Positions 2,735 to 39,121 of a stretch of 64,000 nucleotides of DNA are shown in pieces. Made by a program: the position numbers and the translations under genes. This stretch comes from Actinostola sp. cb2023 (Eukaryota; Cnidaria; Anthozoa; Actiniaria; Actinostolidae): contig JAUJYZ010000103.1 of assembly GCA_033675265.1 (NCBI GenBank), positions 62,001-126,000 of the forward strand, in the 5' to 3' direction. The notes under the pieces were generated by a model. The model ran no database searches and was not told the DNA's origin. It saw only the letters and a list, made by a program, of their open reading frames with translations. How positions within the stretch are numbered: position 1 is the first letter of the stretch; every line of letters begins with the position of its first letter.

Positions 2735-3984
2735 AGAAGAGGCAAGATTTGTATTTCTCAAAAGCCTATTTTACGCCATCAATACCACACTCACGATGTC
2801 TGCAGATGCTATAACTACCTTAATAGCAATTACGACCATGATTTATTCTGGCGTCCAATTGTTTTCGAGTCAAATTTTCACACTCACTACAATATTTGCA
2901 GACCTTAACTTAGTTATGAACTACAACGTGGATTACGGGTTTAGAATCGTTCAGGAAGCAATGATATCGCTTGAACGGATCGAGCAATTTCTTTATGGAA
3001 GGGAATTATGGCATTTGACAGATGATGATACACAAACTACTGAGATAATATCTGACAACAATTCCCAGGAACAAAATACCCATAACACAGACAAATACGT
3101 CATCCTTGTGAATTTATCAGCAGCATGGAATAACGATGAACCAAATATACTTCACAATATCAGTATTCAAGCAACACATAACGAGTTAACAATCATCACG
3201 GGACCTGTTGGGAGTGCAAAGACGTCGTTGTTGATGGCAATTCAGGGAGAGATTCCTCTCTCTACAGGAACATTGTCTGTTCAAGGTAAAAAAGCTTACG
3301 TTTCTCAAATTCCCTGGATATTCTCTGGATCCATTCGTGATAACATCGTCTTCGGCAAGACGTACGATGAAGTAAGATACCAAAGGATTCTAGATGTATG
3401 CGAACTTCAAGAAGACATCAAACGATTTCCCAAAGGAGATCTAAGTATGATTGGACAACGAGGTATCATGTTGAGTGGTGGTCAGCGTGCACGTGTTAGC
3501 CTAGCACGAGCAGTGTACTCAGATGCTGACATCTTTTTATTGGATGACCCACTAAGTGCAGTCGATGCAAAGGTTGGACAACGCATCTTTGACAAGTGTA
3601 TTTGTGGAGAACTGTCTGGTCGACTTCGAGTTCTGGTCACACATCAACTGCAGTACCTTCATGGTGCTAACTGTATTGTTGTAATGAAAGACGGCTATGT
3701 TGACTTTCAAGGATCGTACAAAGAACTGAAAGATAGTGATACGATGCAGCTGGACGTTTCTACCGAAGAAGTTATCAAAGGCAAAGATGCTATCGACGAT
3801 GATGAGGTTGTTGAACCAAATGAACAGCAAAACGTATGCAATGAAGAAGCAAATGATTTTACAGAAGTAGAAGAGGATAGAACAGTTGGGCATGTGTCTT
3901 GGCAAGTGTATTGGTCGTTCTTCAGAGCTAGCTCTCATTCCATTGCTTTGTTGTTGTTTATCATATTCTACTTGTTTGTTCAAG
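2735..3984 (+). CDS. Copy A exon: end of TMD1, linker, NBD1, start of TMD2
   Basis: The acceptor is TTCTTTTTTCAG at 2723-2734. The first base completes an Arg codon begun by the AG that ends the upstream exon (phase 2), giving VRR-EEARFVFLKS across the junction, as in ABCC TMD1. NBD1 motifs: Walker A at 3201-3227, LSGGQ at 3471-3485, Walker B at 3531-3551, H-loop at 3636-3650. An acidic linker (NDFTEVEEDRTVGHVSW) leads to the first helix of TMD2. The donor is CAAG|GTAAGC with GT at 3985. Open throughout, unlike the copy B exon. Confidence 0.92.
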
Positions 3985-6900: not shown

Positions 6901-9900
6901 AGGTAAAATATCCTAAATATCTGTATATTGTCATGTTCTGCCATCCCAACCTTATTGCTTTCAGCTCTGATCTTAGTTTTTACAAATTTAATTTTGGAAC
7001 GGTCATAGGGCCCGGCGCACACTATGAGATCAGTATAAACACCTGGTATCAGAAGCATATCAAAATCCAAATAAAATGTGTGAAGATCTAGAGGGTGGAT
7101 AATTTCCCTTCACGAATCACTGAAAAGACTAAAACAGAATCGAAAGCGAAAATAAAAATAACAAAAGAACATAGGATATCGAGATGGTGTAACACAATCA
7201 AAGTTACTGGAAAAAGATATATCAATCAAAGTAACAAAAGAACATAGGATATCGAGATGGTGTAACACAATCAAAGTTACTAGAAAAAGATCTATCAATC
7301 AAAGTAACAAAAGAACATAGGATATCGAGATGGTGTAACACAATCAAAGTTACTAGAAAAAGATATATCAATCAAAGTAACAAAAGAACATAGGATATCG
7401 AGATGGTGTAACACAATCAAAGTTACTAGAAAAAGATATATCAATCAAAGTAACAAAAGAACATAGGATATCGAGATGGTGTAACACAATCAAAGTTACT
7501 AGAAAAAGATATATCAATCAAAGTAACAAAAGAACATAGGATATCGAGATGGTGTAACACAATCAAAGTTACTAGAAAAACATCTATCAATCAAAGTAAC
7601 AAAAGAACATAGGATATCGAGATGGTGTAACACAATCAAAGTTACTAGAAAAAGATCTATCAATCAAAGTAACAAAAGAACATAGGATATCGAGATGGTG
7701 TAACACAATCAAAGTTACTAGAAAAAGATCTATCAATCAAAGTAACAAAAGAACATAGGATATCGAGATGGTGTAACACAATCAAAGTTACTAGAAAAAG
7801 ATATATCAATCAAAGTAACAAAAGAACATAGGATATCGAGATGGTGTAACACAATCAAAGTTACTAGAAAAAGATATATCAATCAAAGTAACAAAAGAAC
7901 GTAGGATATCGAGATGGTGTAACACAATCAAAGTTACTAGAAAAAGATATATCAATCAAAGTAACAAAAGAACATAGGATATCGAGATGGTGTAACACAA
8001 TCAAAGTTACTAGAAAAAGATATATCAATCAAAGTAACAAAAGAACATAGGATATCGAGATGGTGTAACACAATCAAAGTTACTAGAAAAAGATATATCA
8101 ATCAAAGTAACAAAAGAACATAGGATATCGAGATGGTGTAACACAATCAAAGTTACTAGAAAAACATCTATCAATCAAAGTAACAAAAGAACATAGGATA
8201 TCGAGATGGTGTAACACAATCAAAGTTACTAGAAAAAGATATATCAATCAAAGTAACAAAAGAACATAGGATATCGAGATGGTGTAACACAATCAAAGTT
8301 ACTAGAAAAACATCTATCAATCAAAGTAACAAAAGAACATAGGATATCGAGATGGTGTAACACAATCAAAGTTACTAGAAAAAGATCAATCAATCAAAGT
8401 AACAAAAGAACATAGGATATCGAGATGGTGTAACACAATCAAAGTTACTAGAAAAAGATATATCAATCAAAGTAACAAAAGAACGTAGGATATCGAGATG
8501 GTGTAACACAATCAAAGTTACTAGAAAAAGATATATCAATCAAAGTAACAAAAGAACATAGGATATCGAGATGGTGTAACACAATCAAAGTTACTAGAAA
8601 AAGATATATCAATCAAAGTAACAAAAGAACATAGGATATCGAGATGGTGTAACACAATCAAAGTTACTAGAAAAACATCTATCAATCAAAGTAACAAAAG
8701 AACATAGGATATCGAGATGGTGTAACACAATCAAAGTTACTAGAAAAAGATATATCAATCAAAGTAACAAAAGAACATAGGATATCGAGATGGTGTAACA
8801 CAATCAAAGTTACTAGAAAAACATCTATCAATCAAAGTAACAAAAGAACATAGGATATCGAGATGGTGTAACACAATCAAAGTTACTAGAAAAAGATCAA
8901 TCAATCAAAGTAACAAAAGAACATAGGATATCGAGATGGTGTAACACAATCAAAGTTACTAGAAAAAGATATATCAATCGAAGTAACAAAAGAACGTAGG
9001 ATATCGAGATGGTGTAACACAATCAAAGTTACTAGAAAAAGATCAATCAATCAAAGTAACAAAAGAACATAGGATATCGAGATGGTGTAACACAATCAAA
9101 GTTACTAGAAAAAGATCTATCAATCAAAGTAACAAAAGAACATAGGATATCGAGATGGTGTAACACAATCAAAGTTACTAGAAAAAGGTATATCAATCAA
9201 AGTAACAAAAGAACATAGGATATCGAGATGGTGTAACACAATCAAAGTTACTAGAAAAAGATATATCAATCAAAGTAACAAAAGAACGTAGGATATCGAG
9301 ATGGTGTAACACAATCAAAGTTACTAGAAAAAGATATATCAATCAAAGTAACAAAAGAACATAGGATATCGAGATGGTGTAACACATTCAAAGTTACTAG
9401 AAAAAGATATATCAATCAAAGTAACAAAAGAACATAGGATATCGAGATGGTGTAACACAATCAAAGTTACTAGAAAAAGATATATCAATCAAAGTTACAA
9501 AAGAACGTAGGATATCGAGATGGTGTAACACAATCAAAGTTACTAGAAAAAGATATATCAATCAAAGTAACAAAAGAACATAGGATATCGAGATGGTGTA
9601 ACACATTCAAAGTTACTAGAAAAAGATATATCAATCAAAGTAACAAAAGAACATAGGGATATACAGATACTGAGTACAATGTATAATAATCATAATTATC
9701 TTACTTAACATTTTTGATTTCTTTTTCAAAATACTAATTATCTTCTCTCATAATAATACCTTTCAGCTTTAACTGGAATGTTGTTAACCGTTATCATTGG
9801 TGTTATTGGCTTGATTAATTATGGTATTCGTATGGCATGTGAAGTAGAAAACTATATGACTTCAGCAGAGCGTATCTTGGCGTATAGTTGTCTTCCTCCA

Positions 9901-10677
9901 GAGCCGGGTTACAGCAGACAATCCCTACCACCAGACACTTGGCCTGACCATGGCATGATTAGTTTACAGAATGTATCACTACAATACATTGAGAATGGTG
10001 TGACGGTACTACAAAATCTCAACTTTGAAGTCAGACCCAAGGAAAAAGTGGGGATCATCGGTCGTACTGGAGCAGGCAAGTCATCGTTGTTTGCCGCCAT
10101 TTTACGTATGCCAGAACCTCAAGGCAAGGTTATCATTGACGGTGTAGACCTGGGTACTATTAATATCCAGGCCGCTCGGAAGTCCATGGCCGTGATATCC
10201 CAGGATCCTGTTCTTTTTGCTGGAACTCTCAAGAGGAATCTCGATCCATGTCATCGTTTTGCAGAGGAAGAAATCTGGACAGCACTAGCACAAGTTCAGC
10301 TAGGAGACAAAATAGCCATGCTACCAGACCAACTAGAATATAGGGTGGGAGAGTCTGGGACTGGGTTCAGCGTAGGTGAGAGACAACTTTTGTGTTTGGC
10401 TCGAGCGTTGCTTCAAAGATGTCGTATACTGCTGATGGATGAAGCAACAGCCAATGTGGACTTCAAGACGGACCAATTCATTCAACATACTATAAGAAAC
10501 AAGTTTACCAACTGCACCGTATTGACCATAGCACATCGACTAAACACTATTATGGACTATGATAAGGTAGTGGTGATGGACCAAGGTCACGTGGTTGAAC
10601 AAGGTGCGCCCGCGGTACTTGCTTGTAAGGAAGGTGGATACTTAAACGAACTGATACAAAGTAAAAGACCGAAGTGA
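2735..10677 (+). CDS. ABCC (MRP4-like) transporter, copy A, 3' four exons
   Basis: A multidrug-resistance-associated ABC exporter of the ABCC4-like group. By family, it would be a membrane protein that exports organic anions using ATP. Visible exons are 2735-3984, 4179-4749, 6766-6902 and 9767-10677, about 955 codons; the N-terminal third lies left of the window. All junctions are GT..AG and the phases match (2, 1, 2, 1). Order: end of TMD1, NBD1, TMD2, NBD2. NBD1 has Walker A GPVGSAKTS, signature LSGGQ, Walker B IFLLDDP and H-loop THQ. NBD2 has GRTGAGKSS, FSVGER, ILLMDEATANVD and IAHRLNT. There is no in-frame stop until TGA at 10675. The Asp after Walker B in NBD1 is the usual ABCC asymmetry. 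The alanine replacing the last glycine of the NBD1 Walker A is unusual. The tandem paralogue is at 19723-31084. Family assignment is very secure; orthology to ABCC4 specifically is likely but not proven. Confidence 0.93.
4179..4749 (+). CDS. Copy A exon: TMD2
   Basis: The acceptor TTTCCCTAG ends at 4178, after a 194-bp intron. Phase 1 joins G|CC to make Ala. It encodes hydrophobic TMD2 helices and the conserved ABCC coupling region: SPVLFFDTNPLGRIMNRFSS, LDDNLP, RSPVYAHISET and GLEVIRSLQ. The donor is CACAG|GTATCA with GT at 4750. The intron length and position are identical in copy B. Confidence 0.92.
5461..5820. other. Cluster of TGACGTCA palindromes in intron
   Basis: The CRE-type octamer TGACGTCA or its core occurs near 5469, 5626, 5640 and 5803, two of them in a ATAAATAA-spaced pair. 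They sit in AT-rich intron DNA with no gene start nearby. The same octamer occurs near 51927, 61459, 61711 and 62807, always in transposon-like DNA, so it may be part of repeats rather than a host enhancer. Confidence 0.4.
5980..6128. repeat. (CCCTCT)n microsatellite
   Basis: Almost pure CCCTCT/CTCCCT hexamer for about 150 bp, with a few CCCC or CTCCT slips. It is polypyrimidine on the + strand and polypurine on the other. The Pro-Ser, Leu-Ser and Gly-Glu open frames across it are repeat artefacts. Confidence 0.97.
6612..6683. repeat. Inverted repeat (hairpin)
   Basis: Arms of about 25 bp: TTTTTATTCACTCGTGATAA and its near-perfect complement ending CGTGAATAAAAA, around a 17-base loop. Probably a small foldback MITE inside the intron. 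Confidence 0.7.
6766..6902 (+). CDS. Copy A exon: short TMD2 exon
   Basis: A 137-bp exon between TGATTTGTAATTGCAG and donor GAAG|GTAAAA. It reads LLDDYTKALFLRFSMNQWLA then LRLDFVCSMFAIVVAILG, matching the ABCC segment containing W-F-A-x-R-L-D. Phase is 2 in and 1 out. The copy B counterpart (29969-30105) has the same length. Confidence 0.9.
7150..9658. repeat. 73-bp minisatellite in the last intron of copy A
   Basis: About 34 head-to-tail units of exactly 73 bp (checked at 7174, 7247, 7320) with core GAACATAGGATATCGAGATG and GTGTAACACAATCAAAGTTA. Units differ mainly at a short site (AGATATATC, ACATCTATC, AGATCTATC, AGATCAATC) and at GAACATAGG/GAACGTAGG. The variant pattern repeats every 7 units (511 bp). 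The sequence is unrelated to the junction minisatellite at 1-2660. It is absent from the 68-bp equivalent intron of copy B. Confidence 0.97.
9767..10677 (+). CDS. Copy A last exon: end of TMD2 and complete NBD2
   Basis: The acceptor is ATACCTTTCAG, ending at 9766; phase 1 gives Ala. It encodes the last TMD2 helix, the ABCC motif EVENYMTSAER, and the whole NBD2 in one exon. Walker A is at 10060-10086, the signature FSVGER at 10366-10383, Walker B LLMDEATANVD near 10427-10446, and H-loop AHRLNT near 10528. The Q-loop reads ISQDPVLFAGT. It ends YLNELIQSKRPK then TGA. There is no obvious C-terminal PDZ-binding tail. Confidence 0.93.
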
Positions 10678-16402: not shown

Positions 16403-16981
16403 TTATTTTATGAATAGCGCCTCAGATATTTTTCTCTTCCGGTTTTGTGTAAAGTTTTGCCCTAAGATACTAAAGTGATCTCTGCATGCCGGGGTGTGGT
16501 CTAACTTCTTCGAATGTTTTAGGATGGATGAATTTTTGTCTCTTCCACTGTGGTCTTTTACCCGCTCGTCCAATCTCCTGGCCGTTTCTCCTACGTAGAA
16601 CTCCATGCAATTCTCATTTGGGCATGCTACCTTGTAAACTACATCATGTTTATGTTCCAACAGCGTTTTATCTTTAACGGGAAAACGGGATGAACGTTTT
16701 CGTGCTTGGTAGATGATTGATGTTTTGACATTGGGAGGGATGCTACTCTCAACTAGACGTTTGAGCTTTCTAACCATTTGCGTACCTTTTTCTCCCATGT
16801 AGGGGAGAATGAGGGAGATCTTATTCTGGTCCGTTGTTGTTGTGTTCACTTGATGTTGTGCTTGAGGGTTGATTGTTGTCTGGTATCGTTTTGCTCTTAC
16901 CTCATCAATGATGTTGTTGATAAACCGATATATATCCATTGATATCATGAAACGTTTTTCTGAGGTGGTTGAGCTCGGCAT
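16403..16981 (-). pseudogene. GIY-YIG endonuclease of the Penelope-like element
   Basis: 192 codons. The catalytic-type core reads DVVYKVACPNENCMEFYVGE then TARRLDERVKDH, the GIY-YIG pattern with its downstream Arg and the usual E-H. It overlaps the RT frame by about 77 bases in a different frame, so a frameshift separates them. Confidence 0.82.
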
Positions 16982-17404
16982 CTAGAGCTTGCTCGTTGGA
17001 GGAAACCACAAAGGCACGTTTAATCAAACCTCTGAGGGTACCTCGCTTCCATGCCATTGGTGCTTCAGTTTCCCAATGAATGTAAAGGTCTGTATGCGTC
17101 TTCTTTCTATAGACGGAAGTCTCAAATTTGTTGTCTCTCCAGGTTATTTTGATATCCAAGAACGGCATAGTATTGTCTTCCGATAGTTCGTATGTAAACT
17201 GAATTTTGTTATCAAATCCATTGAGTTCTTGTAGTACACGGTCAATGTCATTGTGCTTTATATACGCAAGTGTGTCATCAACGTATCTCTTCCATCCCCA
17301 GAGCATAGGATCTAGTTTTGGAATAATTTGCTGTTCCAACTCAACCATGTATATGTTGGCGAGAACAGGTCCAAGCGGATATCCCATCGCTATACCATCT
17401 GTAA
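16905..17404 (-). pseudogene. Reverse transcriptase palm/thumb of the Penelope-like element
   Basis: Contains MGYPLGPVLANIYM (RT motif 4) and WKRYVDDTLAYI with the YVDD catalytic box, then FLDIKITWRDNKFETSVYRK. It is cut at its N-terminal side by the inserted element at 17405. Confidence 0.85.
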
Positions 17405-18113
17405 AGGGGCAGCGTCAAGCGCCTCACGCATGCGCATTAAAATCAAAACTATAACATTCGGTTGAGAAGCCTACCTTGCCCGGTAGCGAGTTACAAAACC
17501 CCCCTAAAACCGTTCTAATCGTTAAATAAATGACCTACAGGACTCATGTAGATACTAATCTATATTTAGAAAGCAATTTCAGAACTTCAAAATATCAAAA
17601 GGACTGAATTCAAGAAGTGAATTCACGGCGATATCATTTTCCAACGGCCGATCAAATAAGACACAGGAAGCCCAACACATAAGTAGATGGTGGGAAGCTC
17701 ACCGGGTTTACAAGTAGTTCTACGTGAGTTTTTCTCTTCAAAATTCATGAACAGTACTGCACCTACGATTGATGATCAAGATTCCTTCGCAATCGACCAG
17801 AATTGCCGGTTTACAATTCGGTTTTCTTCACTCGAGGATGATGGCGGCCTGCCTCTCTACGGCTGTTCGACACTTTTTTCAACGGCTTCAAGGTCAGTTC
17901 TAAGATGAAATAATCCCCACTAGGAATTGTTGAAAATGAAGAACATGCTTTGAATTATTACTAGTGATCCATTAGACGCTTGAACAAACATGATTAAGGT
18001 CGATGGAAACGGATTGAAAACATCGATAATAATAAAAGTCCACGGTGGACTTTTATTATTTCTCGCTTCTTCGTAGCCAGGCTTACGCGGTCATATTGGT
18101 TGACACTGCCCCT
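17405..18113. mobile_element. DNA transposon (nonautonomous) inside the Penelope-like element
   Basis: The ends AGGGGCAGCGTCAA and TTGACACTGCCCCT are inverted copies. The flanks read GTAA on the left and TTAA on the right, which is compatible with a TTAA or TAA target duplication with one change. Excising it in thought restores the RT reading frame between HFMF and TDGIAMG. The interior (17503-17702) is shared with 39690-39893. A plus-strand 73-codon frame inside is not recognised. Confidence 0.78.
17503..17702 (+). repeat. Dispersed repeat copy 1 (partner 39690-39893)
   Basis: Shared landmarks with 39690-39893: CCGTTCTAATCG, TAAATAAAT, ACAGGACTCA, TATCAAAAGGAC, ATCAAATAAGACACAGGAAG. Several mismatches and small indels separate the two. 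Confidence 0.75.
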
Positions 18114-19291
18114 TTAAACATGAAGTGGACGTTCCTATTGCTTAAAATAAACAACTTTTTTAGCTCTTCCCGAGATAGCAGGGTGTTAATCTCCTTCTTC
18201 TCATAGATTATGCGTATATTTATATCGATGGTTTTGTTGAGGGGAACGTTTGTAAATAAAGCTGTGACGTCAAAGCTAATCATTTCAAAGCCATCAGGTA
18301 GTTTCTCTGCATGAAGTCTTTGATGAGGTCTTCCGTGCTGCTAATGGTAAATACAGACTTTGCCAATGGAGATAATAACTTTGTTAGATATTTGGCTACT
18401 TGGTAAGTTGCAGTACCAATGTTGGAAATTATTGGACGCAATGTCAGCTTTTCTATTCCTTCGCCTTGTTTCAATTTGTGAACTTTCGCCGGCCATTCCG
18501 TAAAAGACACCTGGTTTGGAATCTGTTGGGTAAAGCATTCGATATTCTGCATCGTCAAACTTAGATTTAATTTTACTCAGAAACCATTGTACCATTCCTT
18601 CCGTTTTGTTGGTTGGATCATGATCTAAGCGTTGGAATTGTTCTTTGTCTAATATATCATTACATTTCCTCAGATATTCTGGTCGGTCCATCAGTACTAC
18701 TCCTCTTCGGATCACTTTTTCATATTTGTATGGGACCCTGATATTAGAGTAGTTTTGACAGATGCTTCTGATTTTCGTTTTTAGGTTTGTCTGTTGTAGT
18801 TCGTCTGTTAGATGCTTGGTATATTTGACTAAATAATATAATATATACTAAGTCTTGATAGAATGTTTCAAATTCTGTTTGGATCTTATTACGGTTGCTC
18901 GGGCTAGATATATGTTGGTCTAAGCTGAACGAGAGAGCCATTTTCTCCTCCAACGATAATGTCTGTGGACCCATTGTTTCCTCTTACCGTTAATGGTTTT
19001 CCTCAGTGCTCGATTTATAACAGTATGGATGAAGAAACCAACATGATCCAGTAGTTCTTTTGATACCGTCTTAATTGATTGTTTCAAGGTACGTTTCTGG
19101 CTGTGTTTACGACGGGTTTCAATGTCCAACAATAATCTACAGATCTTGGTGCGTACCTTTCGAGGAACAGGGATACTGAGTTTAGGTCGTGTGAACTTCG
19201 GTAGTAGCTTCTCTCTTTTGCAGGTAACAAGAAATTCAATGTCACACTCAACTTTTGCTACTTTAGTACGTTGTCTTTCAAGAAAACGCAC
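18114..19291 (-). pseudogene. N-terminal and RT-finger part of the Penelope-like element
   Basis: Four overlapping minus-strand frames (18083-18283, 18280-18558, 18341-18715, 18920-19291) with frameshifts between them. Recognisable family blocks are KVHKLKQGEGIEKLTLRPII, SFDVTALFTNVPL and, further upstream, CKREKLLPKFTRPKL. Confidence 0.8.
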
Positions 19292-19722: not shown

Positions 19723-20249
19723 ATGGCAAAATCGAGTTTTCTTGAACCGTTTTATCAAAACCCAAAGGAAGAAGCAGGATTCTTCTCTCTCTTGTCCATG
19801 TCATGGATGAACAGGCTTCTGAAGACTGGTTATCAGCGTCCATTAAACGATGATGATTTGTACGATCTGTCGAGCGACAATAAAGCAGAACACATTGCAG
19901 ATCAGACGAACGATGCCTGGGAAGAAGAAGTCATAGCAGCAAAGAAGCAGAAACGAAGACCTCGACTTTGGAAAGCTCTGTTAAACGTTTTTCCTTGTCA
20001 ACACTATGTTGTCATTCTGTTACTGAGATTTTCAGCAGATTCGCTGACTATTTTCAAGGCAGTTTTACTATGGCTCTACCTGAAGATGCTTGGTGAAGGC
20101 TTCCACCAAACTTACTACACAATATTAGTTGTGACAAGTTTTTCTGTGGTACTTTTATTGTCTCTTCTATCATCAACCACCATAAATATCAGTCACTCGT
20201 AGTTGAGATGCGTTTGAAGGTCGCGCTGATTGGATGCATTCATCAAAAG
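19723..20249 (+). pseudogene. Copy B exon 1: N-terminus and first TMD1 helices
   Basis: ATG at 19723, 15 bases after an acceptor-like TACATATTTTTCAG, so a noncoding leader exon upstream is likely. It reads MAKSSFLEPFYQNPKEEAGF onwards, then WMNRLLKTGYQRPLNDDDLY, the ABCC N-terminal signature. From about 20185 the family similarity (HHKYQSLVVEMRLKVALIG) continues in another frame up to donor AAAAG|GTAAGT (GT at 20250), so one base is missing or two are extra. Confidence 0.82.
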
Positions 20250-21183: not shown

Positions 21184-21563
21184 ATTCTGAGAACAAGGCG
21201 CTACATTCTCTCGCAAGTGAAACTTGGCCACATTCAAAATCTAGTTTCTAATGATGTAGAAAAAATAGAAGAGCTGGTTATGATGTCTACATTCCTAATA
21301 TCATCACCATTCGTCATTGTGGCTTCAATTATTTCTTTGTGGATGTTAGTTGGATGGCAGTCACTTTCTGGCACTTTCTTCATGTTAGTTCCCTTGGCAT
21401 TTACCGCGGTTATGGCCAAACATTTCACCAAATTACGAAGAGCACAAGCACTGTAAACAGACAAGCGTCTCAATATTGTACACGAGATTATCTCTGGTAT
21501 ACGAGCTGTGAAGGCGTTTGCATGGGAGGAGAATTACAAGAACATGGTGAAGACTGTTAGAAG
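21184..21563 (+). pseudogene. Copy B exon 2: TMD1
   Basis: It begins ILRTRRYILSQVKLGHIQNL then VSNDVEKIEEL (the ABCC 'N-x-x-S-N-D-V' block) and ends EIISGIRAVKAFAWEENYKN through KTVRR, split phase 2 at AG|GTAGGG (GT at 21564). TAA at 21454-21456 interrupts the frame. The last 42 bases are the seed of the 73-bp junction minisatellite that follows. Confidence 0.86.
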
Positions 21564-24085
21564 GTAGGGGCAATGACAACTTATACTGGATATTATGGGA
21601 GGAGAATTATTAGAACATGGTGAAGACTGTTAGAAGGTATAGGGGCACTGATAACGTATACTGGATATTATGGGAGAAGAATTACAAGAACATGGTGAAG
21701 ACTGTTAGGAGGTATAGGGGCACTGATAACGTATACTGGATATTATCGGAGAAGAATTACAAGAACATGGTGAAGACTGTTAGAAGGTAAGGGCACTGAT
21801 AAAAGTATACTGGATATTATGGGAGGAGAATTATAAGAACATGGTGAAGTCTGTTAGAAGGTAGGGGCACTGATAACGTATATTGGATATTATGGGAGGA
21901 GAATTACACGAACATGGTGAAGACTGTTAGAAGGTAGGGGCACTGATAAAAGTATACTGGATATTATGGGAGGAGAATTACACGAACATGGTGAAGAATG
22001 TTAGAAGGTAGGGGCACTAATAATGTATACTGGATATTATGGGAGGAGAATTATAAGAACATATGGTGAAGACTGTTAGAAGGTAGAGGCAATGATAATA
22101 TATACTGGATATTATGGGAGAAGAATTACAAGAACATGGTGAAGTCTGTTAGGAGGTTGGGGCACTGATAACGTATACTGGATATTATGGGAGGAGAATT
22201 ACACGAACATGGTGAAGACTGTTAGAAGGTAGGGGCACTGATAAAAGTATACTGGATATTATGGGAGGAGAATTACACGAGCATGGTGAAGACTGTTAGA
22301 AGGTAAGGGCACTAATAACGTATACTGGATATTATGGGAGGAGAATAACACGAACATGGTGAAGACTGTTAGAAGGTAGGGGCACTGATAACGTATACTG
22401 GATATTATGGGAGGTGAATTATACCAACATGGTGAAGACTGTTAGAAGGTAGGGGCACTGATAACGTGTACTGGATATTATGGGAGGAGAATTACACGAA
22501 GATGGAGAAGACTGTTAGAAGGTAGGGGAACTGATAACGTATTCTGGATATTATGGGAGGAGAATTACACGAACATGGTGAAGATTGTTAGAAGGTAGGG
22601 GCACTGATAACGTATACTGAATATTATGTGAGGTATATTATAAGAACATGGTGATGACAGTTAGAAGGTAGGGGCACTAATAATGTATACTGGATATTAT
22701 GGGAGGAGAGTTATAAGAACATGGTGAAGACTGTTAGAAGGTATAGGGGCACTGATAACGTATACTGAATATTATGGGAGGTGAATTATAAGAACATGGT
22801 GATGACAGTTAGAAGGTAGGGGCACTAATAATGTATACTGGATATTATGGTAGGAGAGTTATAAGAACATGGTGAAGACTGTTAGAAGATAGGGGCACTG
22901 ATAACGTATACTGAATAATATGGGAGGTGAATTATAAGAACATGGTGATGACAGTTAGAAGGTAGGGGCACAAATAATGTATACTGGATATTATGGTAGG
23001 AGAATTATAAGAACATCGTGAAGTCTGTTAGAAGGTAGGGGCACTGATAACGTATAGTAGATATTATGGGAGGGGAATTATAAGAACATGGTGGAGACTG
23101 TTAGAAGGTAGGGGCACTGATAACGTATACTGGATATTATGGGAGGAGAATAACACGAACATGGTGAAGACTGTTAGAAGGTAGGGGCACTGATAACGTA
23201 TACTGGATATTATGGGAGGTGAATTATACCAACATGGTGAAGACTGTTAGAAGGTAGGGGCACTGATAACGTATACTGGATATTATGCGAGGTGAATTAT
23301 ACGAACATGGTGAAGACTGTTAGAAGGTAGGGCCACTGATAACGTATACTGGATATTATGGGAGGAGAATTACAAGAACATGGTGAAGACTGTTAGAAGG
23401 TAGGGGCACTGATAACGTATACTGAATATTATGGGAGGTGAATTATAAGAACATGGTGATGACAGTTAGAAGGTAGGGGCACTAATAATGTATACTGGAT
23501 ATTATGGGAGGAGAATTATAAGAACATGGTGAAGACTGTTAGAAGGTAGGGATACTGATAACGTATACTGGATATTACGGGAGGAGAATTACAAGAACAT
23601 GGTGGAGACTGTTAGAAGGTAGGGGCACTGATAACGTATAGTAGATATTATGGGAGGAGAATTATAAGAACATGGTGGAGACTGTTAGAAGGTAGGGGCA
23701 CTGATAACGTATACTGGATATCATGGGAGGAGAATTATAAGAAGATGGTGAAGACTGTTAGAAGGTAGGGGCACTGATAACGTATACTGGATATTATGGG
23801 AGGAGAATTATAAGAACATCGTGGAGTCTGTTAGAAGGTAGGGGCACTGATAACGTATACTGGATATTATGGGAGGAGAATTATAAGAACATCGTGAAGT
23901 CTGTTAGAAGGTAGGGGCACTGATAACGTATACTGGATATTATGGGAGGAGAATTACACGAACACGGTGAAGACTGTTAGAAGGTAGGGGCACTGATAAC
24001 GTATACTGGATATTGTGCGAGGAGAATTATAAGAACATGGTGAAGATTGTTAGATGGTAGGGACACTGATAATATATACTGGATA
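21522..24085 (+). repeat. 73-bp junction minisatellite, copy B
   Basis: About 35 units, 73 bp apart (some 75 where TATAGGGG replaces TAGGGG). The first unit is the genuine exon 2 end plus donor. Every later unit repeats that exon end, the AG|GTAGGG donor and 31 intron bases. The array stops before CTTCGTGTCCGTACGTCCAA, exactly as in copy A. Read straight through, the donor gives AGA AGG TAG, a stop immediately after the exon. Confidence 0.95.
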
Positions 24086-24167
24086 TTACTTCGTGTCCGT
24101 ACGTCCAACATCGATCCCATACGCAGTTAGATCATTTGAATGTCTTAAATAATATTTCTTTTTTCAG

Positions 24168-25424
24168 AGAAGAGGCAAGATTTGTATTTGTCAAAAGCAT
24201 ATTTTACTCCATCAATACTACACTCCTTATGTCTGCAGATATGCTATAACTACGTTAATAGCAATTACGACCACGATTTATTCTGGCGTCCAATTGTTTT
24301 CGAGTGAAATTTTCACACTCACTACAATATTTGCAGACCTTAACTTAGCTATGATCTACAACGTGAATTACGGGTATAGAATCGTTCAGGAAGCCATGAT
24401 ATCACTTGAGCGGATCGAGCAATTTCTTTATGGACGAGAATTATGACATTTGACAGATGATGATACACAAACTACTGAGATAATATTAGACAACAATTGC
24501 CAGGAACAAAATACCCATAACACAGACAAATACATCAGCCTTGTGAATTTATCAGCAGCATGGAATAACGATGAACCAAATATACTTCACAATATCAGTA
24601 TTCAAGCAACACATAACGAGTTGACAATCATCACAGGACCTGTTGGGAGTGCAAAGACGTCGTTGTTGATGGCAATTCAGGGAGAGATTCCTCTCTCGAC
24701 AGGAACATTATCTGTTCAAGGTACAAAAGCTTACGTTTCTCAAATTCCCTGGATATTCTCTGGATCCATTCGTGAAAACATCGTCTTCGGCAAGACGTAC
24801 GATGAAGTGAGATACCAAAGGATTCTAGATGTATGCGAACTTCAAGAAGACATGAGGCGATTTCCCAAAGGAGATCTAAGTATCTAAGTATGATTGGACA
24901 ACGAGGTATCATGTTGAGTGGTGGTCAGCGTGCACGTGTTAGCTTAGCACGAGCAGTGTACTCAGATGCTGACATCTTTTTAATGGATGACCCACTAAGT
25001 GCAGTCGATGCAAAGGTTGGGCAACGCATCTTTGACAAGTGTATTTGTAGAGAATTGTCTGGTCGTCTTCGAGTTCTGGTCACACACCAACTGCAGTACC
25101 TTCATAGTGCTAACTGTATTGTTGTAATGAAAGACGGTTATGTTGACTTTCAAGGATCGTACAAAGAACTAACAGATAGTGATAAGATGCAGCTGGACGT
25201 TTCTACCGAAGAAGTTACCAAAGGCAAAGATATCGACGATAATGTGGTTGTTGAACTAAATGAACAGAAAAACGTATGCAATGAAGAAGCAAATGACTTT
25301 GCAGAAGTAGAAGAGGATAGAACAGTTGGGCATGTGTCTTGGCAAGTGTATTGGTCGTTCTTCAGAGCTAGCTCACATTCCATTGCTTTGTTTTCGTTTA
25401 TCATATTCTACTTCTTTGTTCAAG
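24168..25424 (+). pseudogene. Copy B exon 3: NBD1 exon with three lesions
   Basis: The acceptor TTCTTTTTTCAG ends at 24167. Relative to copy A: AT inserted near 24240 (GCAGATATGCT vs GCAGATGCT); TGA at 24444 replacing TGG; CTAAGTAT duplicated near 24880. NBD1 motifs persist in pieces: GPVGSAKTS at 24636, and LSGGQ and DDPLSAVD after the duplication. Confidence 0.88.
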
Positions 25425-25618: not shown

Positions 25619-26189
25619 CCTTTCTCTACTCTCCAAACTTGTTGCAGTCGCGATTAGCCCACATGTCACACAATCAACAAGCCAGTCCTACAACTATTGG
25701 TACTTACGTTGGTTTGGTCATGGGAGCAATGGTTCTATGTGGAATTCGAGATTTTCTTGCTTATTATTTGACAGTCAGATCGTCAAGAAATCTTCATACA
25801 AGAATGACTGAGTCGGTGATAAAATCACCGGTGCTTTTCTTTGATACGAATCCACTTGGTCGAATCATGAACCGTTTTTCAAGTGACACAGGAAACCTAG
25901 ATGACAATCTTCCCCGACGAATTGACTGTGCTTTAGCTTTCACCATGAAAGCATTTGGAGTTGCATTTGTAGCACTGTTTGTACATCTCTGGTTTATCGT
26001 GATGCTTATTCCTTTAGCATTGGTGTTTCTGTACTACTGTCGTTATCTGCTGAGAAACTCTCGTGAGATATGTCGGCTGGAATCCATTCGTCGAAGCCCA
26101 GTTTATGCGCATATTTCAGAAACAGAGAGAGGACTGGAAGTGATTCGTTCTTTGCAGATGGAGGAGAAATTCACCGAAAAAATGCACAG
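25619..26189 (+). pseudogene. Copy B exon 4: TMD2
   Basis: The same length (571 bp), phases and motifs as copy A exon 4179-4749, and still open. The donor is CACAG|GTATAG. Confidence 0.88.
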
Positions 26190-26585: not shown

Positions 26586-26805
26586 GGAAACTCACTAATG
26601 AGAAGGTGTTTCATCCCGGTATATACTTATTTCAAATATGTTAGTCGTCCTTGACTCACAAAGGTGCGACCCCAGAGAATCATGGAAGTAATATTTTTTA
26701 CCAAGTTTTGAATTTGCTTCACAGCAATGTTGTTGTTTAGTACAAAACGTTAATGAAAAATGGCTTCAAATAGAAATTCCCATGATCCTTCAGGATCGCA
26801 CATTC

Positions 26806-27102
26806 ATCTCTACCTGTCTAGGTCTGTCTGTCCATCTCCCCTCTACCTGTCTAGGTCTGTCTGTCCATCTCCCTTCTACCTGTCTAGGTCTGTCTGTCCA
26901 TCTCCCCTCTACCTGTCTAGGTCTGTCTGTCCATCTCCCCTCTACCTGTCTAGGTCTGTCTGTCCATCTCCCTTCTACCTGTCTAGGTCTGTCTGTCCAT
27001 CTCCCTTCTACCTGTCTAGGTCTGTCTGTCCATCTCCCTTCTACCTGTCTAGGTCTGTCTGTCCATCTCCCTTCTACCTGTCTAGGTCTGTCTGTCCATT
27101 TC
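26806..27102. repeat. 33-bp minisatellite, left half
   Basis: About 9 units of 33 bp (CTACCTGTCTAGGTCTGTCT then GTCCATCTCCCCT). It is interrupted at 27103 by an LTR element and resumes at 29395. Open frames across it are artefacts of the multiple-of-three period. Confidence 0.95.
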
Positions 27103-27281
27103 TGTTATGATCCCAAACAGAAAGAGTCAATGGAGTTTACACTTGTGATCTTTAATGTTGTGCTTGTCCATCTCTTACATGTGCAAACTAATATATTCAA
27201 AACTACAACGTCATGCCCACAAGGCATTGTGGGAACAGTCTAGGGTGGTATATCTTAGTGAATACTAGTATACTCATAACA
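27103..27281 (-). repeat. 3' LTR (minus-strand element)
   Basis: 179 bp, TGTT...AACA ends, nearly identical to 29216-29394. It follows CATTTC of the 33-bp minisatellite. Confidence 0.88.
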
Positions 27282-27358: not shown

Positions 27359-27781
27359 TCAATACAAATCTTTATGCCATTGGGGTACGGATCGAACTCT
27401 GTATGATCTACGTGGCCCTATGCTAGTGTTGGCAGAATTCAACTCTGGTATGACCGACTGTGGTATGGGATCATATAGCGGTTCCGTGTTTATCTCAACC
27501 TTAGGTTCCTTGGAGACATGCAACTGTTGTCTGTTTCTCCTATACTGTCTACCTGTTTCGTCTGTGACTAGGTATGACCTCGGTTGTTCAACTATTTTAC
27601 TGACGTTTGCCGGTGTATAGTGGTTTGTGTATGGCTTCCTGAACCTTATGCTCTCCCCTGTGACAAGTGGTCTAAGAGGTTTCGATCTTCGGGACTTTGA
27701 AATCATTTCAAAGTCCTTGGACTTTGAAATGCATTTCAAAGTACTCTTGAGCGGACTTTCCGGGGTTTCCAGGTCCATCAT
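27359..27781 (-). pseudogene. Retrotransposon integrase C-terminal part
   Basis: 140 codons. GESIRFRKPYTNHYTPANVS then RSYLVTDETGRQYRRNRQQL has the form of the gypsy integrase C-terminal barrel ('W/R-x-P-A-x-V ... Y-x-V ... G ... RNR-x-x-L'). The frame upstream jumps directly to RT-like sequence, showing a large internal deletion. Confidence 0.75.
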
Positions 27782-27842
27782 GTGACCGGATTTGATGCAC
27801 CGGATTGGCTGGTTACCTCATGAATAATTAATGAGTTTGAGA
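27753..27842. repeat. 90-bp block shared with 56677-56767
   Basis: GGACTTTCCGGGG through CCAGGTCCATCATGTGACCG and ACCTCATGAATAATTAATGA is found at both places with a few changes. Here it sits on the RT/integrase deletion junction. At 56677 it stands alone. Confidence 0.8.
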
Positions 27843-27844
27843 AT

Positions 27845-28400
27845 GTTTGTTCAACTTTAGCTATAACACCCTGTCCTTCGAGATTATCTAGAGTTGTTTT
27901 TAGTCTATCTACTAAACGTAACGGAACATTTATCTGATGTTGGATAACGGGACACGCGTCACTTTTAAGTTGGATTTCATACGTGCCTTCGACACATCCG
28001 AGCCCGCTAAAAACATCTCGGCACTCATCAAGTAAATCTTCGGGTCGCTGAACCGTGTCAACACTAGCGTAGTTCTGATTAACCTGATTGTTGATAACTA
28101 CTAAACCTAATCTTAAGCACGATTCTAGTCCTAGCAGTGGCTTAACTCTGTTCCTTATGACATAAAATTCTAATGGAATCGATTCTTCTGAGTTAGATAA
28201 TTTACAATTAACTTGGCATTTACCTACAGTATCGAGAGAGTACCCCCCCCCCCAATGACTTAAGCTGCATACTGGTAGGTTGGATATGACAATTGCTAAG
28301 CTTATCTACAACATGCTTAGGTAAAATATTACATTCGGCTCCAGTGTCTAACTTACAGTCAATAGATATGTCTTCTACCATCAACTTTGTTTGAATGGTC
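27845..28400 (-). pseudogene. Retrotransposon protease and RT start
   Basis: The minus strand reads MVEDISIDCKLDTGAECNIL (aspartic protease active site D-T-G-A) near 28330-28385. Further on, VPLRLVDRLKTTLDNLEGQG then VIAKVEQ near 27850-27930 is the usual beginning of a gypsy RT. A run of nine C at 28246-28254 probably breaks the frame. Confidence 0.72.
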
Positions 28401-28401
28401 T

Positions 28402-28635
28402 TTAATCCTCTCTTCTGTTACATACTTTTTGGAAGTGGTTTCTTCCACTGCAACTGTAACATGCTGCTCCCCATGCTGGGCATTTCCCCCTATCGTGCGA
28501 TAGGGCGCAGAATTTACAGTTCATGATTTTTGAACTTCTCGCCTCGTTGGCATTCGGTGGAGTGTACGTGGTTGGTTGGTTTCGATTACGCATCGTGTTG
28601 ACGCTTGCTTTCTTGATACTATGCACTGTGCTCAT
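28402..28635 (-). pseudogene. Retrotransposon gag zinc knuckle
   Basis: 77 codons. CKFCALSHDRGKCPAWGAAC followed by CYSCSGRNHFQKVC gives a CCHC knuckle (C-x2-C-x4-H-x4-C) preceded by a second Cys/His motif. Typical nucleocapsid region of invertebrate gypsy elements. Confidence 0.8.
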
Positions 28636-28968
28636 AGATGAATTTGCTAAGACTTTGGATTGTTCTTTAGATCTCTCAGATGCTCGACATGAGTTTATAG
28701 TTTTTTCAAGTGTCAGATCAGCTTCGCGTAGCCGGAAGCCGTTCTCTTAACGCGGCGTTGTTCGTGCCAATGACTATCTGGTCGCGAATTAGAGAGTCTT
28801 TCAAGACACCAAATTCTTCGTAACTCGGTTAGATATATGTCGAACGGACGTTCTTCTTGGACCGCCATTCGAAAAACATATCTCTCATAGGTTACATTAT
28901 TTCGTGGAATGCAGTAACCTTCGAGAGCTGTGAGTATTCCGTCTTCAGATCTGTCTGTTATGTTATCT

Positions 28969-29187
28969 TTAAGTACCTGGTAGTGTCTTCAGGACACGTC
29001 TTGAGCGAATTCCTAGAACGCTTTGTAATGTTGCGACTTTAATTTCGTCTTCTTTCTCAGAGAGTCCACTGGATATCTTGTATAGTTGCCATGATTCTTT
29101 CCATTCTTTCCAACTGTCTGCTAGATGAGGACTCTCAATGTCGAGTTCTGGAGGAGGCTTTATTCTTTCCATTGTGATTAGATCCAA
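28969..29187 (-). pseudogene. Retrotransposon gag N-terminus
   Basis: 72 codons starting MDLITMERIKPPPELDIESP and continuing SWKEWKESWQLY, the common start of gypsy-type gag proteins. It lies just downstream of the 5' LTR and primer-site-like tract. The frame breaks before the zinc knuckle. Confidence 0.7.
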
Positions 29188-29215: not shown

Positions 29216-29394
29216 TGTTATGATCCCAAAGACAAAGAGTCAATGGAGTTTACACTTGTGATCTTTAATGTTGTGCTTGTCCATCTCTTACATGTGCAAA
29301 CTAATATATTCAAAACTACAACGTCATGCCCACAAGGCATTGTGGGAACAGTCTAGGGTGGTATATCTTAGTGAATACTAGTATACTCATAACA
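29216..29394 (-). repeat. 5' LTR (minus-strand element)
   Basis: 179 bp, near-identical to 27103-27281. It ends AACA and is followed by ATCTC, where the 33-bp minisatellite resumes. Confidence 0.88.
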
Positions 29395-29880
29395 ATCTCC
29401 CTTCTACCTGTCTAGGTCTGTCTGTCCATCTATATACATAAACTTTATTAACGTGTCAGACTTCTAGCATACCACAAGTGGTACACTAATCGGGGTCTAG
29501 GTCTGTCTGTCCATCTCCCTTCTACCAGTCTAGGTCTGTCTGTCCATCTCCCTTCTACCTGTCTAGGTCTGTCTGTCCATCTCCCTTCTACCTGTCTAGG
29601 TCTGTCTGTCCATCTCCCCTCTATACCTGTCGACTAGATCTGTCTGTCCATCTCCCTTCTACCTGTCTAGGTCATCTCCCTTCTACCTGTCTAGGTCTGT
29701 CTGTCCATCTCCCCTCTATACCTGTCTAGGTCTGTCTGTCCATCTCCCTTCTACCTGTCTAGGTCTGTCTGTTCATCTCCCTTTTACCTGTCTAGGTCTG
29801 TCTGCCCATCTCCCTTCTACCTATCTAGGTCTGTCTGCCCATCTCCCTTCTACCTGACTAGTTCTGTCTGTCCATCTTCC
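29395..29880. repeat. 33-bp minisatellite, right half
   Basis: It continues CTTCTACCTGTCTAGGTCTG units after the LTR element, more degenerate, with an unrelated 60-bp interruption (29432-29496) and some 36-bp units containing CTATACCTG. Confidence 0.92.
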
Positions 29881-29968
29881 CTGAATCGATTAGTCATATG
29901 AAACCATGTGTTCTTTTTTAAATTAGAGGAATTTTAATATCTGTATATATTATGATTTGTATTTACAG

Positions 29969-30105
29969 ACTTCTAAACGATTACACCAAGCCGTCATTCC
30001 TTCGTTTGTCTATGACACAATGGTTTGCTCTTCGTCTTGACTTTGCCTTTGCTTTGTTTATTATTGTCGTCGCTATTTTCGGGGTCGTAGCCATCAACGA
30101 TGAAG
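29969..30105 (+). pseudogene. Copy B exon 5: short TMD2 exon
   Basis: 137 bp, open, the same length and phases as 6766-6902. The acceptor is GATTTGTATTTACAG and the donor GAAG|GTAAAT. Confidence 0.88.
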
Positions 30106-30173: not shown

Positions 30174-31084
30174 CTTTAACTGGAATGTTGTTAACCGTTA
30201 CCATTGGTGTTATTGGCTTGATTAATTTTGGCGTTAGCATGGCATGTGGAGTAGAAAACTATATGACTTCAGCAGAGCGTATCTTGGCGTATAGTTGTCT
30301 TCCTCCAGAGCCGGGTTACAGCAGACAATCCCTACCACCAGACACTTGGCCTGACCATGGCATGATTAGTTTACAGAATGTATCACTACAATACATTGAG
30401 AATGGTGTTACGGTACTACAAAATCTCAACTTGGAAGTCAGACCCAATGAAAAAGTGGGGATCGTCGGTCGTACTGGAGCAGGCAAGTCATCGTTGTTTG
30501 CCGCCATTTTACGTATGCCAGAGCCTAAAGGCAAGGTTATCATTGACGGTGTAGACCTGGGTACTATTAATATCCAGGCCGCTCGGAGGTCCATGGCCGT
30601 GATATCCCAGGATCCTGTTCTTTTTGCTGGAACTCTCAAGAGGAATTTCGATCCATGTCATCGTTTTGCAGACGACGAAATCTGGACAGCACTAGCACAA
30701 GTTCAGCTAGGAGACAAAATAGCCATGCTACCAGACCAACTAGAATACAGGGTGGGAGAGTCTGGGACTGGCTTCAGCGTAGGTGAGAGACAACTTTTGT
30801 GTTTGGCTCGAGCGTTGCTTCAAAGATGTCGTATACTGCTGATGGATGAAGCAACAGCCAATGTGGACTTTAAGACGGACCAATTCATTCAACATACTAT
30901 AAGAAACAAGTTTACCAACTGCACCGTATTGACCATAGCACATCGACTAAACACTATTATGGACTATGATAAGATAGTGGTGATGGACCAAGGTCACGTG
31001 GTTGAACAAGGTGCGCCCGCAGTACTTGCTTGTAAGGAAGGTGGATACTTAAACGAACTGATACAAAATAAAAGACCGAAGTGA
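30174..31084 (+). pseudogene. Copy B exon 6: NBD2
   Basis: 911 bp, the same length as in copy A, open to TGA at 31082. All NBD2 motifs are intact (GRTGAGKSS, ISQDPVLFAGT, FSVGER, LLMDEATANVD, AHRLNT). The preceding intron is only 68 bp (30106-30173). Confidence 0.9.
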
Positions 31085-34745: not shown

Positions 34746-36359
34746 CTGAAGAAGGCTGTGCGACACATGCAGTCGAAATATTATAGAAATGTCACTCATT
34801 TTTGTGGCTACTGTCTCTAATGGAGACGTAGCCACTATGCCATCGAGTGTTAAGAGGCCGTCTCCCTAAAAACCACCCACTCAAATTCGCGCCTAAAATA
34901 ATTTTTCCTGAAACTCTAGTGACTGAAAGACTTTATCAAGGTTAGTACTAAAACAGGTTTGGTTTGGTTCAAAATATTTTTCTGGTGGCGTTAGAAACCG
35001 TCAAACATTTTGACCAGCCAGGGCCCAGTAGCGACGTCTCAAAACTTGAAATTAGGCATTATTCGTGGCGCTGTAGAAACTTCAATTCGCATCATCAGGC
35101 AATGAATTTCATGTCAAATTGCTCATATATCTTTCTAGTTTTCCTAGTAACTGAGATTTATTTCCTCAATTTAACCGTTGAAGCAAAAACAAGCATATTG
35201 TGACCCCTACTAATCACCACGGATTGAGGGCTCGAAATAACCTCGATTGAGACGCTGATTTCGCAAAAGTGGCACTTATCTGGCAACTCTAGCCTATGCA
35301 ACCAAAAAGTACAGTCCTTTATTGATACAAATATGTAAAAACCTGTGTACGTTTTCAATATTTCAGAAGTTATGGCCATTTTTATAAGCACACGTGCAAC
35401 ATTTTGTGGTTTTCTGCTAGGTGCAAAATCGGCCTCTCTCAAGCAGAGTTAATTGAAAATAGGGCTTACCTTGCTTCCCAGCTCAAGGATATTTCCTTAT
35501 TCATCCATACTTGAATCCTTCAGATACTTAAATTCACAAGTAGATCCTGTTAGAAGGTAGGCATTCCCTTCGTAACTTGAAGACGGCCATTGTTGAATCG
35601 CCTGTCAGCGAGCCAGAACTCGAAATCATGACTTCTTTTCGCGCTGAATAATCTCTTGCGAGATCAATTAAGTGCTGAATTATTTTGAGAATTAAAAAAT
35701 GAACAGTCAAAGGCTTAATTTTGAGGAGAAAGTCAACATTTTAGGGCTCTACATCGAAGAAAACTAGCCATCTAGACCCTCGATGTGTTGTTGCTTCCAC
35801 AGAGGTCCGCTTAAATGAGTGAAACCGCTGGTGGAATGTATCGACACAACAGCGCGCACACAAACTTGGGCCTATGATCGTCATCTATCAGCGAAAAGAT
35901 TAAATCCTACTTCTTTTTATGCGAAAATATTTGTCGCTCAACAATATAATTTCAGAATTTATAGGTTTTTTTCACAAATTTAGGCTGGGACTACAGTATG
36001 TTTTGGTACGTATTGCGATATATATGCCGGTAGGCTATACGTTCTTGAAATCAATTATTACTGTCGCTGATTTCTGAATGCGAGTGTGCTTCCCCTTCTT
36101 AGAGCCATTTAAAAGTAATAGCTCAGTGAATTCCAGTGGTTACCTTGTCCTCCCCCACGGGCATTTGACATTTATTTCCAGAGCGTTGCTTTTTCGTTAT
36201 CAACGAAATGTACTAATCTGCTAATATTGATAATAATTGATCATCACTAATGAACGGTTACGTCGCTAGCAGCGGAAATCAAGATGCCACCGGGTAAATA
36301 TGTCAATATTCTCATTTGATACTAACATGTAATCGTAACTTACTGAAAACTTTGTACTA

Positions 36360-37117: not shown

Positions 37118-39121
37118 TAAGAGTGCAAATACCCCACCCTGGGAACTAATAGAAATCACATGCATATTCTCCCAAGCCAGTTTTTGTAACCAATTCAGTG
37201 ATATCAAAAGCGCTATCGGTACCGCAGAAATCTTGCAGCTTACTGAGTGACAGAGTCGTCCATATTTGATTATTGCACAACTCATAAAATCGCACGTTGA
37301 AACGAAAATACAAATATGTGGCGGTGAGGCGCTACCTGACGTTTCGAATTATTATTTTGCAATATTAAATACTTTTAAGAGCACCTGATAATTTTTAAGA
37401 ACTAGTACAACATTCCTACTTTTGAGTAAATGACAAATGCCCTACCCCGGGGCAGCCTTTCTCCACAAAATGCCCCATAGTTGGGATTGAGAATTTTCAG
37501 ACAATGCCCGACAAATGCCTGGGGGTACGGTAGAAGGGGAGATGGCAACCGCTGGAATTGACTGAGCCATAGCTACAGTAACATATAATTGCTTTCAATT
37601 GCGCATGCTGACCCCATTGTGGGACATTAGCAACGCTCTATATAGCTGGACATAAATGTCAAATGCCCGACATATGTATGTATGTATGCCTGAGGGAGGA
37701 CGAAATGGTACTGGAATTCAGAAATCAGCTAAAGTAATATGAATTACTTTCAAGAACGTATAGCCTATATATCTCCATGCTCGAGAGTCCACCGTTGCTC
37801 TTCGGCGCGTGCTCGGGGCGACGTTTCATCCGAGCCCGCGGCGAAGGGCATCGCTAGCTTTGCCTATGATTAGTTGTGGTTGAGATAACACTGATAACAG
37901 ATACTGAACACTCATCATGACAATAGACGGCTGTCATGTAATGATATGTATTAAATCATATTGGATTTCAAAAAATATCGCTATACATGTCAGTGATATT
38001 TTGATAAAAACTATAAAGTCTGAAATTATATTGTTGAGCGACAAATATTTTCGCATAAAAGGATATAATAGGATTTTAAATATTTTCGCTGATACATAGG
38101 CCCAAGTTTGTGCGCGCGCTGTTGTATCGATACATTCCACCAGCGGTTTCACTCATTTAAGCGGACCTATGTGGAAGCAACAACACATCGAGGGTCTAGA
38201 TGGCTAGTTTTCTTCGATGTAGAGCCCTAAAATGTTGACTTTCTCCTCAAAATTAAGCCTTTGACTGTTCATTTTTTAATTCTCAAAATAATTCAGCACT
38301 TAATTGATCTCGCAAGAGATTATTCAGCGCGAAAAGAAGTCATGATTTCGAGTTCTGGCTCGCTGACAGGCGATTCAACAATGGCCGTCTTCAAGTTACG
38401 AAGGGAATGCCTACCTTCTAACAGGATCTACTTGTGAATTTAAGTATCTGAAGGATTCAAGTATGGATGAATAAGGAAATATCCTTGAGCTGGGAAGCAA
38501 GGTAAGCCCTATTTTCAATTAACTCTGCTTGAGAGAGGCCGATTTTGCGCCTAGCAGAAAACCACAAAATGTTGCACGTGTGCTTATAAAAATGGCCATA
38601 ACTTCTGAAATATTGAAAACGTACACAGGTTTTTACATATTTGTATCAATAAAGGACTGTACTTTTTGGTTGCATAGGCTAGAGTTGCCAGATAAGTGCC
38701 ACTTTTGCGAAATCAGCGTCTCAATCGAGGTTATTTCGAGCCCTCAATCCGTGGTGATTAGTAGGGGTCACAATATGCTTGTTTTTGCTTCAACGGTTAA
38801 ATTGAGGAAATAAATCTCAGTTACTAGGAAAACTAGAAAGATATGTGAGCAATTTGACATGAAATTCATTGCCTGATGATGCGAATTGAAGTTTCTACAG
38901 CGCCACGAATAATGCCTAATTTCAAGTTTTGAGACGTCGCTACTGGGCCCTGGCTGGTCAAAATGTTTGACGGTTTCTAACGCCGCCAGAAAAATATTTT
39001 GAACCAAACCAAACCTGTTTTAGTACTAACCTTGATAAAGTCTTTCAGTCACTAGAGTTTCAGGAAAAATTATTTTAGGCGCGAATTTGAGTGGGTGGTT
39101 TTTAGGGAGACGGCCTCTTAA

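Follow-up and report, generated by a model that had tools for sequence, protein, structure and literature searches.

A minisatellite that repeats the exon-2 donor in three tandem ABCC4-like genes of the sea anemone Actinostola sp. is probably a passively kept intron repeat

Introduction

Minisatellites with a splice donor in the unit have been described at exon boundaries of the human genes ABCA7, CBS and IFI6, so that an array of competing donors, which an earlier note on the DNA studied here had called unusual, deserves that word only in part. The downstream donors of the CBS array are used. This array is reportedly tied to reduced activity (title of Lievers 2001). The unit of IFI6 measures 12 nt and keeps the reading frame; Turri 1995 is said to be the original work on that minisatellite.

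The closest match to the present locus is a 25-bp VNTR of about 12–427 units in intron 18 of human ABCA7, in which the first GT is the exon-18 donor (PMC5954066). Use of the donor in the next unit retains one unit and leads to a premature stop; this retention amounts to about 2% (by the order of the figures in the paper) and is unaffected by the size of the VNTR, and greater length is accompanied by more skipping of exon 19 and by lower expression (PMC5954066). In CBS, the name of the 31-bp VNTR, c.1444_1467+7(16_21), implies 24 exon and 7 intron nucleotides per unit (PMC2630376). The IFI6 (6-16) minisatellite contains multiple splice donors, and two downstream units are used (cited in PMC3618361 and PMC4526556). 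A model of intron gain (PMC4974935) holds that tandem duplication of AGGT-containing segments multiplies splice sites, with several 24-bp units in fission yeast.

Here we describe an array in Actinostola sp. cb2023 that, judged from its sequence, appears alike in anatomy to those of ABCA7, CBS and IFI6 and differs from them in the size of the unit and its long exon part, in its presence in three tandem paralogues and, in one of these, in a pseudogene host. With ABCA7 it shares an array that starts at the native donor, a premature stop upon use of the next unit and a host gene for an ABC transporter; the ABCA7 unit, in contrast, runs from the GT without an exon part, lies in an ABCA rather than an ABCC gene and is polymorphic in a working gene. 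The CBS unit likewise spans the boundary, holds the donor and has a length that is not a multiple of three, but it is shorter, present in 16–21 copies and polymorphic in a working gene. IFI6 resembles the anemone array in having minisatellite units that serve as donors and differs in that three mRNA species encode isoforms. The AGGT model has in common the tandem duplication around AGGT by which potential splice sites are multiplied, whereas the anemone segment spans an existing boundary and brings no new pyrimidine-rich acceptor. The array thus adds a cnidarian case to the donor-carrying minisatellites, the three compared examples being human, and natural paralogues that carry 11, 63 and 35 units at the same exon boundary lend themselves to testing how the spliceosome selects one of many near-identical donors.

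Results and Discussion

Anatomy of the array in copy B

The window, that is the whole stretch of 64,000 nucleotides that was analysed, corresponds to positions 62001–126000 of contig JAUJYZ010000103.1 (C1396) in an assembly of 424,152,321 bases and 1594 contigs. Coordinates without a contig name refer to the window, and the features of the two genes within it, copy A (g2) and copy B (g3), lie on the forward strand. A minisatellite with a period of 73 bp, 35.0 copies and 90% matches was found by Tandem Repeats Finder (TRF) at 21522–24088, and wrap-around alignment resolved it (21523–24088) into 35 units, each with a donor position. The 73-bp unit consists of the 41 nt at the end of exon 2, ending in AAG, and 32 intron nucleotides starting with GTAGGG. 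Unit 1 is the genuine exon-2 end and donor of copy B (GTAGGG at 21564–21569, with the GT at 21564–21565). Behind the array lies a unique tail of intron 2 (24089–24167) with a single pyrimidine-rich acceptor, TTCTTTTTTCAG, the AG of which ends at 24167. Donor and acceptor are consistent with the frame and with the alignment to ABCC4: the tblastn alignment with the MRP4-like protein of Actinia tenebrosa stops at 21563 and resumes at 24168 in matching phase.

These data confirm the earlier reading of about 35 copies of a 5′ splice site in front of one acceptor. The array ends at 24088 and not at 24085, and the units, previously taken as exact repeats, are about 90% alike. The same AG|GTAGGG donor had been ascribed to each unit; the GT is present in 34 of 35 units, AGGT in 33 and the exact sequence AAGGTAGGG in 26. 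Loss of the GT from most downstream units, which the earlier note had named as one of two marks of an inert repeat, did not occur, 33 of the 34 downstream units having retained it. With at most two mismatches the motif GTTAGAAGGTAGGG has 65 matches in the window compared to 0.22 expected from shuffles; 34 of these are in the array of copy B, 29 in a sister array at the left edge and 2 in an inverted repeat.

Three tandem genes carry the array

A search of the assembly with a 73-mer yielded 108 matches among the best candidates, which alone were scored, all of them on C1396 and in three clusters. The clusters coincide with the exon-2 boundary of three tandem ABCC4-like genes, g1, copy A and copy B, and comprise 11, 63 and 35 units, respectively. 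In all three genes unit 1 is the exon-2 end with the native donor, as expected of an exon-boundary VNTR of the ABCA7, CBS and IFI6 kind, and the right flank of the array starts with TTCGTG. The array of g1 is broken by a stretch of some 340 bp that does not belong to it and contains a palindrome (C1396:41866-42205). A tblastn search with the Actinia tenebrosa MRP4-like protein revealed no further ABCC gene on C1396 past 94 kb.

ABCC4-like genes are numerous in this genome: the exon-2 protein has 38 matches, 3 of them on C1396, and several contigs have at least two (C625 has six). Twenty of the 35 matches outside C1396 were sampled, each with 600 nt downstream. None of the 20 paralogues showed a second copy of the exon end within these 600 nt at an E-value of 1e-3; g1, copy A and copy B give 8–9 hits each in the same search. 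Exon 2 ends in AAG|GTA in 18 paralogues and in CAG|GTA in one (L063), matching the codon register. In the twentieth (L052) the match is one residue shorter, and ACA|GTAAG stands at the corresponding place. A search of a phage collection gave no match, which is uninformative for an animal gene.

State of the host genes

The first eight sequences in a PDB search with exon 3 of copy A were ABCC4/MRP4, the Actinia MRP4-like protein matches at 54% over 100% of the joined exons 3–6, and exon 6 aligns with residues 950–1250 of that protein. The best matches to ABCC4 together with two nucleotide-binding domains identify the genes as ABCC4 (MRP4)-like.

Exon 1 of copy B (19723–20249, from tblastn and an alignment of the three genes) contains a 1-bp deletion near 20174; in tblastn with the Actinia tenebrosa protein the frame changes between 20172 and 20175. 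Exon 2 (21184–21563), the last 41 nt of which are the exon part of unit 1, has an in-frame TAA at 21454–21456. Exon 3 (24168–25424) starts directly after the acceptor and differs from that of copy A by a 2-bp insertion at 24239, a TGA at 24444–24446, an 8-bp insertion at 24874 and also one in-frame 3-bp deletion. The frame is open in exon 4 (25619–26189), exon 5 (29969–30105) and exon 6 (30174–31084), the last of which encodes the second nucleotide-binding domain. Exons 1–6 do not form one open frame, and with five lesions (exon 1 frameshift, TAA, +2, TGA and +8) copy B is a pseudogene. The description of the array as part of a coding gene is thereby unsupported for this copy, and the finding as originally given loses value, since the host of that array is a pseudogene.

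The array of copy A is longer than that of copy B and extends beyond the left edge of the window. Its right part (1–2656) is homologous to the array of copy B, and the whole array (C1396:59915-64656) has 63 units with donor columns. It is followed by an open, ABCC4-like exon 3 (2735–3984) and by exons 4 (4179–4749), 5 (6766–6902) and 6 (9767–10677). Exons 2–6 of copy A are open, and a 2-bp deletion is present in exon 1, outside the window. The third array-bearing gene is g1 (C1396:37435-49621), in which exon 3 is interrupted by an insertion of 577 bp (C1396:43203-43779) that begins TGTTACAC and is possibly a mobile element. In the assembly, each of the three array-bearing genes thus has at least one lesion. 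The genome was assembled with DBG2OLC from PacBio reads corrected with short reads, and polished (PMC10803348); the main text of that paper mentions neither RNA nor a transcriptome. Small indels, as in copies A and B, may be assembly errors; the two substitution stops of copy B and the 577-bp insertion of g1 are harder to explain in this way.

Donor strength and conservation

Donor strength was taken as the pairing energy with the 5′ end of U1 in RNAduplex; this is not a trained splice score, and it uses unmodified bases and an assumed U1 end. Donor 1 of copy B pairs with −9.7 kcal/mol and the 33 downstream GT donors with a mean of −9.15 kcal/mol. The scoring of every unit that the earlier note had proposed showed that 27 of these 33 equal or exceed donor 1 in pairing; in g1 and copy A this applies to 4 of 8 and 22 of 60 downstream GT donors, respectively. 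For comparison, 12 further authentic donors from these three genes range from −6.8 to −12.5 kcal/mol, and the exon-2 donors of the 19 in-register paralogues (the out-of-register L052 being excluded) from −5.6 to −8.5 kcal/mol.

The GT is kept in 9 of 11 units in g1, 61 of 63 in copy A and 34 of 35 in copy B. It is thus retained in most downstream units (101 of 106; 104 of 109 when the first units are counted), as expected of an exon-boundary VNTR with a donor in the unit. The alignment comprises 113 unit rows, four of which lack the donor columns, and conservation and identity were computed on the 104 rows with at most 8 gaps. Over these 104 pooled units the donor 9-mer ranks 52 of 73 circular windows in conservation and is thus not special. 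In copy B it is less variable (0.026, against 0.063 for the exon part and 0.044 for the intron part), and in g1 and copy A it is more variable (0.078 and 0.082) than other parts of the unit. The pooled variation of the GT itself, 0.024, is below the average (0.045–0.062). Selection for donors is therefore unsupported over the pooled units, copy B alone having a less variable donor; weak retention of donors by selection may still act in the array.

Products of the downstream donors

In all three genes the frame that leaves exon 2 reads R R stop. As noted earlier, reading through a donor gives AGG TAG, and we find this stop in g1, copy A and copy B alike. All 101 downstream GT donors (8 in g1, 60 in copy A and 33 in copy B) meet the identical in-frame TAG, 1 nt past the exon end. 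It had been proposed that each additional 73-bp unit shifts the frame; any mRNA from a downstream donor reaches the common TAG first, and the single stop shared just after donor 1 rules out frame diversity from the 73-bp units. Since all 101 donors keep the TAG, their products would be one truncated protein and no set of frames, and we infer that the transcripts would be subject to nonsense-mediated decay (NMD). Splicing from donor 1 leaves the frame open through exon 3 in copy A only, among the three genes.

Age of the array and selection on the exons

Units are about as similar between genes (identity 0.899–0.913) as within a gene (0.898–0.921). The nearest neighbour of a unit lies in its own gene for 78.9 of 104 units; the mean over 500 shuffles was 44.8 and the highest value 62.2. 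The last unit of copy B has its best match in the last unit of copy A (0.931). The pairing is non-reciprocal: the last unit of copy A is matched best by two other units of copy A (0.944), with the last unit of copy B tied behind (0.931). Because between-gene identity is close to within-gene identity and the last unit of copy B is closest to the last unit of copy A, a multi-unit array probably predates the split of the genes, with local growth afterwards. Gene conversion could mimic such shared ancestry and is the main alternative.

The dN/dS of the exons is 0.33 for g1 and copy A (Fisher p 1.5e-7), 0.39 for copy A and copy B and 0.46 for g1 and copy B, and the gene-specific changes lean to synonymous sites in each of the three genes (binomial p 0.001, 4e-5 and 0.003). 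The array thus seems compatible with a working gene. Given an array likely older than the split, the dN/dS of 0.33 and the synonymous lean, the genes were probably functional for a time while carrying it, and enough mRNA would therefore have come from donor 1. That the exons were under selection while the array probably already existed suggests a transcript able to tolerate dozens of decoy donors.

Interpretation

We consider it likely that the array is a passively kept intron repeat, which arose from an ancestral duplication of the boundary and left productive splicing to donor 1. A 73-bp segment across the boundary of exon 2 and intron 2 in an ancestral ABCC4-like gene would have been duplicated in tandem and grown into a minisatellite. 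Duplication of the gene would then have spread the array to three neighbouring genes, where separate growth and shrinkage could have led to 11, 63 and 35 units. Each unit would add an exon-like end and a mostly good donor; we infer that readable mRNA comes from donor 1 only and that later donors give one truncated, probably NMD-sensitive transcript. The array would be retained passively, and not because of what its donors do. No more than a minor part of splicing would go astray in a working copy, comparable to the one-unit retention in ABCA7, and in copy B, sitting in a pseudogene, the array would have no coding consequence. The reading is tempered by the lesions in all three genes, which leave it doubtful that any array-bearing gene works at present. 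Strong competing donors of equal strength can, moreover, favour the one nearest to the acceptor, and the array would then be harmful.

The array may instead have been damaging and have driven the decay of the cluster, mis-splicing having relaxed selection and lesions having followed. All three array-bearing genes have lesions, a comparison limited to these three. However, the dN/dS of 0.33 between g1 and copy A after the split and the synonymous lean in each gene indicate that selection persisted with the array, and small indels such as that of copy A may be assembly errors, which makes such decay unlikely. A regulatory role is conceivable as well. Downstream donors could have competed with donor 1 in working ancestors or in copy A, which we think improbable, and with the same low likelihood the share of truncated, NMD-bound mRNA would rise with the number of units and tune the dose of transporter. 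Support comes from the 53 of 101 downstream GT donors whose U1 pairing equals or exceeds that of donor 1, from the first donors of the three genes (−9.7 kcal/mol), which out-pair those of the 19 in-register paralogues (−5.6 to −8.5), from the variation in unit number among paralogues (11, 35 and 63) and from the reduced activity to which the title of Lievers 2001 reportedly ties the CBS array. In ABCA7, expression falls and exon-19 skipping rises as the array lengthens, but one-unit retention stays near 2% independent of length, and the authors do not ascribe the lower expression to retention (PMC5954066). By analogy, this would speak against a free choice among all donors, and the pooled units lack donor-specific conservation. 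We also doubt, to much the same degree, a mechanism inherited by the tandem family, in which near-equal donors lead to one poison transcript and the number of units (11, 35, 63) sets the productive fraction, joined to the addition that the genes remained under selection while bearing the array.

It is very unlikely that the AG|GT of each unit allows 73-nt introns to leave unit by unit, a recursive or multi-intron splicing that would be silent in the mRNA. The tetranucleotide AGGT occurs in 92 of 109 units, and the AGGT model of Rogers, with its multi-copy cases in fission yeast, offers a precedent (PMC4974935). The AGs of the array, however, follow purine-rich sequence: at 89 sites the pyrimidine fraction has a mean of 0.36 and a maximum of 0.47, while 15 authentic acceptors have a mean of 0.66 and a minimum of 0.53. 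By this test of composition (0.36 versus 0.66), AGGT duplication seems to have yielded no usable acceptor. That the array is an assembly artefact or a chance repeat we regard as extremely improbable. Units may be miscounted with long reads corrected and assembled in DBG2OLC (PMC10803348), but three separate arrays differ in unit variants and lengths, and 65 GTTAGAAGGTAGGG matches against 0.22 expected speak against chance.

Other repeats and elements nearby

A second minisatellite with a 73-bp period lies at 7151–9662 in intron 5 of copy A (34.4 copies, 97%, TRF). Its counterpart in g1 has 27.4 copies (C1396:46602-48606), and none is listed by TRF in copy B. It shares the period with the donor array and is located away from exon boundaries. 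Kinship of the minisatellite at 7151–9662 with the donor array was rejected (local score 16, equalled or bettered in 160 of 500 shuffles).

In intron 4 of copy B, two arrays of 33 bp (26809–27099 and 29495–29882) have units that resemble 3′ splice sites, with a pyrimidine tract followed by TAG|GT. Nine TAGGT sites are present in 26800–27110 and 11 in 29380–29890, 10 of the latter inside the array, and the mean pyrimidine fractions are 0.87 and 0.83, respectively. A gap of 86 nt separates the second array from the acceptor of exon 5. Between the two arrays, on the minus strand (27359–28988), are long open frames, one with a zinc-knuckle-like stretch, which we take to be possibly a retroelement. 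Open frames on the minus strand at 16403–18847 resemble a reverse transcriptase ending in a GIY-YIG-like stretch, perhaps a Penelope-like element. An inverted repeat of 1,027 bp (34850–35876 and 38095–39121) is 99% complementary, and each arm carries a copy of the donor motif with one mismatch, at 35549 and 38409.
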